Program-made: the position numbers and the translations under genes
Shown: positions 10,199 through 39,549 of the stretch, one piece after another
Layout of the letters: the number at the start of each line of letters is the position of its first letter
Position numbering within the stretch: position 1 is the stretch's first letter
The notes under the pieces: generated by a model
The model's database searches: none
What the model was told of the DNA's origin: nothing
Seen by the model: only the letters and a program-made list of their open reading frames with translations
From: Acidobacteriota bacterium
GTDB lineage: Bacteria; Acidobacteriota; Vicinamibacteria; Vicinamibacterales; JAFNAJ01
Reading direction: 5' to 3'
Length of the DNA stretch: 64,000 nt
NCBI GenBank assembly: GCA_023384575.1
Contig: JAHDVP010000010.1
Location: forward strand, 1-64,000

Positions 10199-10419
10199 CT
10201 AGAGTGGATCTCACTTGTGTTGATGCTGCCACGCCCGGTTCCGACGACCGGACCGCCCTGCGAGGGCGCCGCGGGCCGCTGGCCGCGCGGGTCGCGCCGG
10301 GGCCCTGTTCCCCCGGCGCTCAACCGCGCTGGTCCCCTGGGCCTTCTCGGGCGGTCAGGCGTGGCGTGTCGGTCGTCTCCACAGGGCCCGGCATCCTCAA
10401 CACAAGTGAGTCGGTCTAG
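10199..10419. mobile_element. about 220 bp element with terminal inverted repeats, copy 1
   Basis: The element runs between CTAG sites at 10199-10202 and 10416-10419. Inside them a perfect 13 bp inverted repeat, TCACTTGTGTTGA (10211-10223), returns as TCAACACAAGTGA (10397-10409). The interior is GC-rich with several nested hairpins, for example CGCCCT-GCG-AGGGCG. About 200 bp are closely repeated, in opposite orientation, at 39318-39549, and half at 35485-35605. There is no ORF of note, so it is non-autonomous or an RNA element. Its right CTAG contains the TAG stop of comEC. Confidence 0.85.
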
Positions 10420-35020: not shown

Positions 35021-35488
35021 GTGGCCGACGCGTACTCGACCGGCCTGCGACTGCTCGGGCGGCGCGAGCTGTCCACACGGCAGGTGCGCGACCGGCTGGC
35101 GCGTCTCGGGTTCGCTCCGCCAGAAGTCGACGGCGCCGTCTCCCGCCTGACCCGCGCCGGCGCGCTCGACGACGGCCGCGTCGCCCGCGCGTTCGCGCGG
35201 ACGAGCGCCGCGGTGAAGGGCCGCGGACCCGACCGCGTACGACGTGAGCTGGCCCTGATGGGAATCCCGGCGGAGCTGGCCGACGTGGCCCTGACCGAGG
35301 TCTTCGGCGAGGTCGACGAGGCGGCGCTGCTTCGTCGCGCGCTCGCGCGAAAGGCCCCCCGCGGCCTCGGCGACGCGCGAGCGCGGCGGCGGGTCTTCGC
35401 CGCGCTCGTGCGCCAGGGGTTCGCCCCCGAGCGGGTGCTCGCCGCACTGCGCGCCCACGGGGTCGACGACGCCATCGAGTCGGACTAG
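35021..35488 (+). CDS. recX: RecX family regulatory protein
   Basis: A 155-residue three-helix-repeat protein; RecX modulates RecA filaments. Features are LLGRRELSTRQVRDRLARLG (residues 11-30) and GRGPDRVRRELALMGIP, followed by C-terminal helices with RRRVFAALVRQGF. It lacks an adjacent recA but precedes alaS, and recA-recX-alaS is a common order, so recA has been lost from this spot or moved. GTG35021 is the start. The TAG stop is part of the CTAG end of the second repeat-element copy. Confidence 0.88.
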   Translation: MADAYSTGLRLLGRRELSTRQVRDRLARLGFAPPEVDGAVSRLTRAGALDDGRVARAFARTSAAVKGRGPDRVRRELALMGIPAELADVALTEVFGEVDEAALLRRALARKAPRGLGDARARRRVFAALVRQGFAPERVLAALRAHGVDDAIESD

Positions 35489-35605
35489 ACCGGATCTCAC
35501 GTGCGTTGAGGATGCCGGGCCCTGTGGAGACGACCGACACGACACGCCTGACCGCCCGAGAAGGCTCAGGGGCCCAACGCGGTTGACCGGCGCACCCGCG
35601 CCCCG
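35485..35605. mobile_element. repeat element, copy 2 (half copy)
   Basis: It starts at the CTAG of the recX stop and runs CCGGATCTCACGTGCGTTGA and on, matching the right half of copy 1 in inverse and the left half of copy 3, through CGACCGACACGACACGCCTG to GCGGTTGA (about 35586). After that the match becomes patchy and the other terminus is missing. It is a decayed or one-ended copy between recX and alaS. Confidence 0.75.
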
Positions 35606-35629
35606 CGACCCCGTTCGACACGGCAGCGC

Positions 35630-35642
35630 TACAATAGGCGGA
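35630..35642 (+). promoter_or_regulatory. -10 box for a leaderless alaS transcript
   Basis: TACAAT (35630-35635) puts the predicted transcription start exactly on the A of ATG35642. The bases between (AGGCGG) leave room for only a very close ribosome-binding site. Confidence 0.4.
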
Positions 35643-39258: not shown

Positions 39259-39317
39259 ATGTGACGATGCGGCTGGCGACTGGCCTTCGCTTCACTCCCA
39301 GTGAGGCAGGGCCACAA

Positions 39318-39549
39318 CCGGATCTCACGGGTGTTGAGGAGGCCCAGCCCTGTGGAGACGACCGACACGACACGCCTGACCGCCCGAGAAGGCCCAGGGG
39401 ACCAGCGCGGTTGAGCGCCGGGGACCGGGCCCCGGCGCGACCCGCGCGGCCAACGGGCCGCGCCGCCCTCGCAGGGCGGTCCGGTCGTCGGAACCGGGAT
39501 GGGCCGCATCAACACACGGGAGATCCGCTCTGGACCGGGCTAGAGCTAG
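39318..39549. mobile_element. repeat element, copy 3 (full, inverted relative to copy 1)
   Basis: Termini CGGATCTCACGGGTGTTGA (39320-39338) and, inverted, CGGATCTCCCGTGTGTTGA (39525-39507) match at 17 of 19. The interior matches copy 1 closely over about 200 bp, including the CGCCCT-GCG-AGGGCG hairpin. The right end has two CTAG sites (39540-39543, 39546-39549). The second contains, on the minus strand, the TAG stop of the TerB-like gene. It lies between convergent genes, as does copy 1. Confidence 0.85.

Follow-up and report, generated by a model that had tools for sequence, protein, structure and literature searches.

A REP/MITE-like palindromic repeat with a covarying core and an outer stem conserved in pairing

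Here, we describe a non-coding repeat of ~220 bp of which a 5.9-Mb Acidobacteria-type genome carries at least 40–45 copies, counting complete, partial and internally deleted forms. The repeat represents a new, structurally constrained, REP/MITE-like element family, whose mechanism of movement we infer. Small palindromic repeats are common, but the part of them that is under selection can seldom be identified. In the present case, the distant relatives separate the selected parts, with the sequence and helices of the core being kept, whereas the outer stem keeps its pairing only. The combination of a covarying core with a free but paired outer stem suggests that the element is recognised mainly by shape. 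We lean, with some reserve, towards the view of a mobile repeat of the REP/MITE kind which is non-autonomous and without an ORF, and which is recognised most likely as a folded hairpin (a cruciform or ssDNA) rather than through a fixed terminal sequence.

Results

Copies in the window and in the genome

The window, i.e., the whole stretch of 64,000 nucleotides that was analysed, contains two full copies and one half copy of the element, at the places given in the original prediction and identified with both BLAST and a covariance model (Table 1). No fourth copy was found in the window, the next match of covariance model R2 having E=0.05. Copy 3 is reversed in orientation with respect to copy 1 and 91% identical to it. 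Conservation is higher in the interior of the element than at its ends, and copy 1 lacks, at its right end, the AT of GGATC.

Table 1. Coordinates of element copies, their parts and adjoining stop codons in the window
Feature	Positions	Strand	Remarks
Full copy 1, CTAG to CTAG	10199..10419	+	Query copy; covariance-model core match 10234-10384
Half copy 2, comprising the right half	35485..35611	-	BLAST and covariance-model match
Full copy 3, between SLT transglycosylase and terB	39313..39533	-	BLAST, end motif, covariance model
Left outer arm/terminal inverted repeat, CTAGAGTGGATCTCACTTGTGTTGA...	10199..10233	+	Pairs with right arm; covariation
Core helix S1, 5' side, GACGACCG	10243..10250	+	3' side 10370-10377; cross-genus covariation
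Core helix S2, 5' side, GACCGCCC	10251..10258	+	3' side 10349-10356; cross-genus covariation
Right outer arm/terminal inverted repeat, ending CTAG	10385..10419	+	Pairing, covariation
comEC stop codon TAG, supplied by the element's terminal CTAG	10416..10418	-	
recX stop codon, from the terminal CTAG of half copy 2	35486-35488		

The predicted number of three copies holds for the window but not for the genome as a whole. When copy 1 was used as a query against its own genome, at least 46 BLAST matches were obtained, including near full-length copies (86–98% identity to copy 1), halves and short derivatives. Allowing up to 2 mismatches, the terminal motif GGATCTCACNNGTGTTGA has at least 54 matches in the genome, compared to 0 for a reversed-pattern control, and the covariance model of the core identifies at least 37 places. 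Internal deletion derivatives range from 85 to 144 bp. Several contigs start or stop within element copies, as expected of a repeat in a draft assembly. Thus, the element is not confined to the three loci of the window, nor is the homology of its copies explained by a coding sequence: given that there is no conserved ORF, a coding element was rejected.

A single long hairpin

Each full copy is one imperfect palindrome of ~220 nt. In an alignment of 17 full copies (230 columns, mean identity 86%), the pairing of the two arms follows a single diagonal that starts at the ends and runs into core helix S1, and the consensus fold is a single long hairpin. Single copies fold ~6 standard deviations better than shuffles (z ~-6). 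The interior, previously described as nested hairpins, is indeed folded, but not only into local nested structures, the hairpin encompassing the whole element.

Covarying base pairs, which the original prediction had proposed to look for, are strongly represented both in the outer stem, among the copies of this genome, and in the core, across genera. In the outer stem, 11 of the 26 pairs are double-changed, a number reached by none of 500 shuffles, and sliding the pairing partner by 1–3 columns reduced pairing from 84% to 34–41%, with all slid controls being lower. Template switching in the quasi-palindrome, without selection, could be the source of part of this covariation. Perfect pairing is not simply the end point of change in the hairpin: nearly all copies carry mismatches at two column pairs (28/205 and 30/203), and a TCC/TCC internal loop is conserved.

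Conservation of the core in other genera

With covariance model R1 and its successor R2, the core was detected in at least seven genera, all belonging to a second family of this order (G036, G054, G115, G121, G138, G144 and G004). The remaining genomes sampled, whether from the order, the class or the phylum, gave no core match with either model, apart from marginal ones in G015 and G001. Across the families, 97% pairing is kept in helices S1 and S2, and 11 of 16 pairs are double-changed (29 distinct sequences), in an alignment that was fitted to a model and hence leans towards structure. The double-changed cells number 82, compared to 20 in shuffles, and 0 of 500 shuffles were as high. Because only 31–40% of the positions are paired in the slid controls for this alignment, model fitting is unlikely to explain the core covariation. 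Beyond the core, the outer stems (25–35 bp) are unrelated in sequence between subfamilies, even within one genome; those of the other genera, despite the differing sequence, are almost fully paired.

Some of the relatives have pairs of copies 80–140 bp apart, arranged either in tandem (G054, L085 1501-1866) or as inverted repeats of each other (G115, L101 1501-1943). In G121, two inverted copies ~0.9 kb apart (L092 1441-2712) flank a gene for a PIN-domain toxin-like protein and a small neighbour gene, a possible VapBC pair. A 6S RNA (Rfam RF00013, 72 bits; L058 511-697 in G054) lies ~800 bp from an element copy and was judged to be incidental.

Position at gene ends and stop codons

As predicted, the two full copies lie in opposite orientation between convergent gene pairs, and the identities of the neighbours, MazG and ComEC around copy 1 and SLT transglycosylase and TerB around copy 3, are borne out. 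Half copy 2 is found between RecX and a putative alaS-like gene starting at 35642 (named from sequence). Genome-wide, 44 copies were placed with a simple codon-usage gene finder. Among the 35 that have both neighbours, 17 are in convergent, 16 in codirectional and 2 in divergent settings, and none is within a CDS. The convergent share (17/35) greatly exceeds that of the junctions in 155 kb of the genome (11/112, expected ~10%; p=6e-9).

Stop codons of adjoining genes lie exactly 1–3 bp outside CGGATCTCAC at 12 element ends, in the registers TAG-AC-CGG, TGA-AC-CGG and TAA-C-CGG, compared to only 3 at 9–20 bp. In the same 155 kb, CTAG occurs 4 times in CDS, 10 times at stop codons and 11 times in intergenic regions. 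As CTAG is rare in coding sequence, the stop-codon register would be accounted for if the end or target were CTAG-like, although the TGA and TAA cases indicate that the CTAG register is not strict.

Near several copies, and once elsewhere, there is a short repeat, TGTGACRATSCGGCTGG (window 39260-39276, L004 1726-1742, L018 1709-1725, L062 4658-4674). Another sequence, GTAGTTCTGAGTTG, adjoins two copies (L022 1441-1500, L024 1441-1500) and is absent from the window.

RNA-level or DNA-level pairing

The competing explanation that survives best is that the element is a structured RNA at transcript 3′ ends, i.e., a bidirectional terminator, an RNase III site or an mRNA stabiliser, retained for helping the flanking genes. 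The location of the copies between convergent genes, directly after stop codons, the very stable fold and the strong covariation are all compatible with such a function, and in the lower strand the conserved unpaired bases are purine-rich, as expected of RNA. A bidirectional terminator had also been suggested in the original prediction, and the position at gene 3′ ends keeps it possible. However, neither an intrinsic terminator nor a promoter was found at the two full copies, which have no G+C hairpin followed by a T run. Furthermore, gene ends read into either end of the element in about equal numbers, with no orientation bias, so that transcripts could be affected only in a bidirectional manner. 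The distribution of the copies does not require a role as a terminator or at mRNA ends, possible though such a role is, since avoidance of genes and promoters combined with a CTAG-like target could produce it.

The mismatches also bear on this question. A selected RNA helix should tolerate G-U pairs on the transcribed strand. In the covarying core, however, G-U accounts for only 2 of 462 cells, and when the arms are compared directly, the mismatches include 37 of the G/T type and 47 of the A/C type (p=0.33). Given that A/C mismatches are as frequent as G/T mismatches and that G-U is rare in the core, DNA-level pairing fits better. In the predicted fold of the upper strand, G-U cells outnumber A-C cells; the folding energies of the two strands are nearly equal, so that strand assignment is ambiguous. 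Altogether, the mismatch statistics point, in a suggestive rather than decisive manner, towards structure at the DNA level, or towards a process that is symmetric between the strands, more than towards an RNA helix. A scan against Rfam 15 yielded no match of the element above the gathering score, and a known RNA family was accordingly rejected. We consider an RNA function unlikely to be the reason for which the element is retained.

Mobility and the search for an enzyme

In four relatives, the convergent mazG/comEC pair lacks the element and is separated by spacers of 63 (G001), 34 (G008), 37 (G021) and 28 bp (G004), compared to a gap of 371 bp, including the element, in this genome. These element-free orthologous loci, together with the many copies and the strong covariation, support both spread and a conserved structured function, which had been offered as alternative readings. 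As for target-site duplications, there is no clean one, and the copies disagree in their ends. Some copies have CTAG at both ends, L004 ends in TTAG...CTAA, and others are degenerate. Because CTAG is its own reverse complement, a duplication and a terminal repeat are indistinguishable in the copies with CTAG at both ends.

The full-length transposase with the same ends that had been proposed as a further sign was likewise not found, either among the at least 54 end motifs (≤2 mismatches) or on the 20 smallest contigs of the draft genome. Nor do the end motifs found include an inverted pair 0.5–6 kb apart enclosing a transposase. On contig C82, a candidate composite transposon between copies encloses one long gene and no transposase, and was rejected. 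The lack of such an inverted pair among the ends found weighs against the possibility that a DDE transposase, since lost or overlooked in the draft assembly, mobilised the element in trans as an ordinary MITE by recognising conserved terminal inverted repeats. Such an origin would be in line with the terminal repeats CTAGA-CGGATCTCACnnGTGTTGA in this genome, the internal deletion derivatives, the multicopy spread and the lack of an ORF, but the relatives conserve the core and not the ends, which is the opposite of terminal-repeat recognition, and we regard it as improbable.

A REP/REPIN family of a RAYT (Y1 HUH) transposase would occupy the same position, with repeat ends supplying stop codons, as in GTAG REPs (PMC3733652), but is highly improbable, given that no element lies within ~1.5 kb of either the one Y1 gene of this genome or any of the 13 listed for relatives, that two element-bearing genomes have no Y1 match, and that the element is 220 bp rather than 20–40 bp long and ends in CTAG rather than GTAG or CGTC; RAYT was thus rejected as a partner.

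A retron or group II intron derivative was also rejected, as there is no RVT_1 (reverse transcriptase) match in this genome. The genome carries one partial IS110 gene, on contig C68, which has no listed copy of the element, and IS110 was not found in three element-bearing genomes. In these genomes, neither reverse transcriptase nor IS110 appears to be co-distributed with the element. Phage carriage was rejected as well, given that viral contigs lack the exact core pattern.

Discussion

Under the reading that we prefer, a mobile repeat recognised as a folded hairpin, a trans-acting enzyme would bind the core of the extruded hairpin, with its conserved mismatches and helices, and the same putative enzyme would move the element. 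The end or target sequence would be CTAG-like and, CTAG being nearly absent from coding sequence, insertions would settle at stop codons, where they would be tolerated. The 3′ ends of the two adjoining transcripts may plausibly be influenced as a secondary consequence. More tentatively, the element might exemplify a new class, namely, mobile repeats recognised by their folded shape, with a covarying, mismatch-bearing DNA hairpin core and a sequence-free outer stem, and moved by a putative structure-specific enzyme into CTAG/stop-codon sites; we hold this broader claim to be possible but doubtful. The contrast between core and stem makes structure-based recognition directly testable, and R2 provides a defined search model for the missing enzyme. 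The element would also add an example of repeats settling exactly at stop codons, perhaps via a rare tetranucleotide that is concentrated there.

We found nothing matching in the literature on such an element in this bacterial group, and the closest parallels come from three known systems. Integron attC sites fold at the DNA level into long imperfect hairpins that immediately follow stop codons and bear conserved unpaired bases, and the element is alike in these respects. Unlike attC, however, it lacks the RYYYAAC...GTTRRRY pair in that order and forms no cassette arrays; its GTT and AAC occur the other way round and lack conservation in the other genera, and this identity was rejected. With bacterial MITEs (ERIC, NEMIS/Correia, RUP), which are ORF-less, 70–300 bp long and intergenic, with terminal inverted repeats and a hairpin fold, the element shares short length, lack of an ORF, multiple copies and terminal inverted repeats. 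Unlike these, it conserves the core and its pairing between genera rather than the terminal sequence.

REP/REPIN sequences of the GTAG and CGTC superfamilies are similarly palindromic and intergenic, present in many copies, and found at gene 3′ ends and in convergent pairs; the repeat ends often give a TAG stop, and the CGTC type also lacks a transposase (PMC3733652). Of the REPs between convergent genes, most have both 3′ ends no more than 20 bp away, and the ends of GTAG REPs often supply the TAG stop codon (PMC3733652). The element likewise has a gene-3′-end location with an end-supplied stop, but neither the GTAG/CGTC tag with a 20–40 bp hairpin nor an accompanying Y1 gene. Instead, it is ~220 bp long, with CTAG-type ends, a multi-helix core conserved across genera and no RAYT association. 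Thus, close as it is to REPs and MITEs in behaviour, the element is distinct from both, its core being kept by compensatory change across genera and its outer stem by pairing only.
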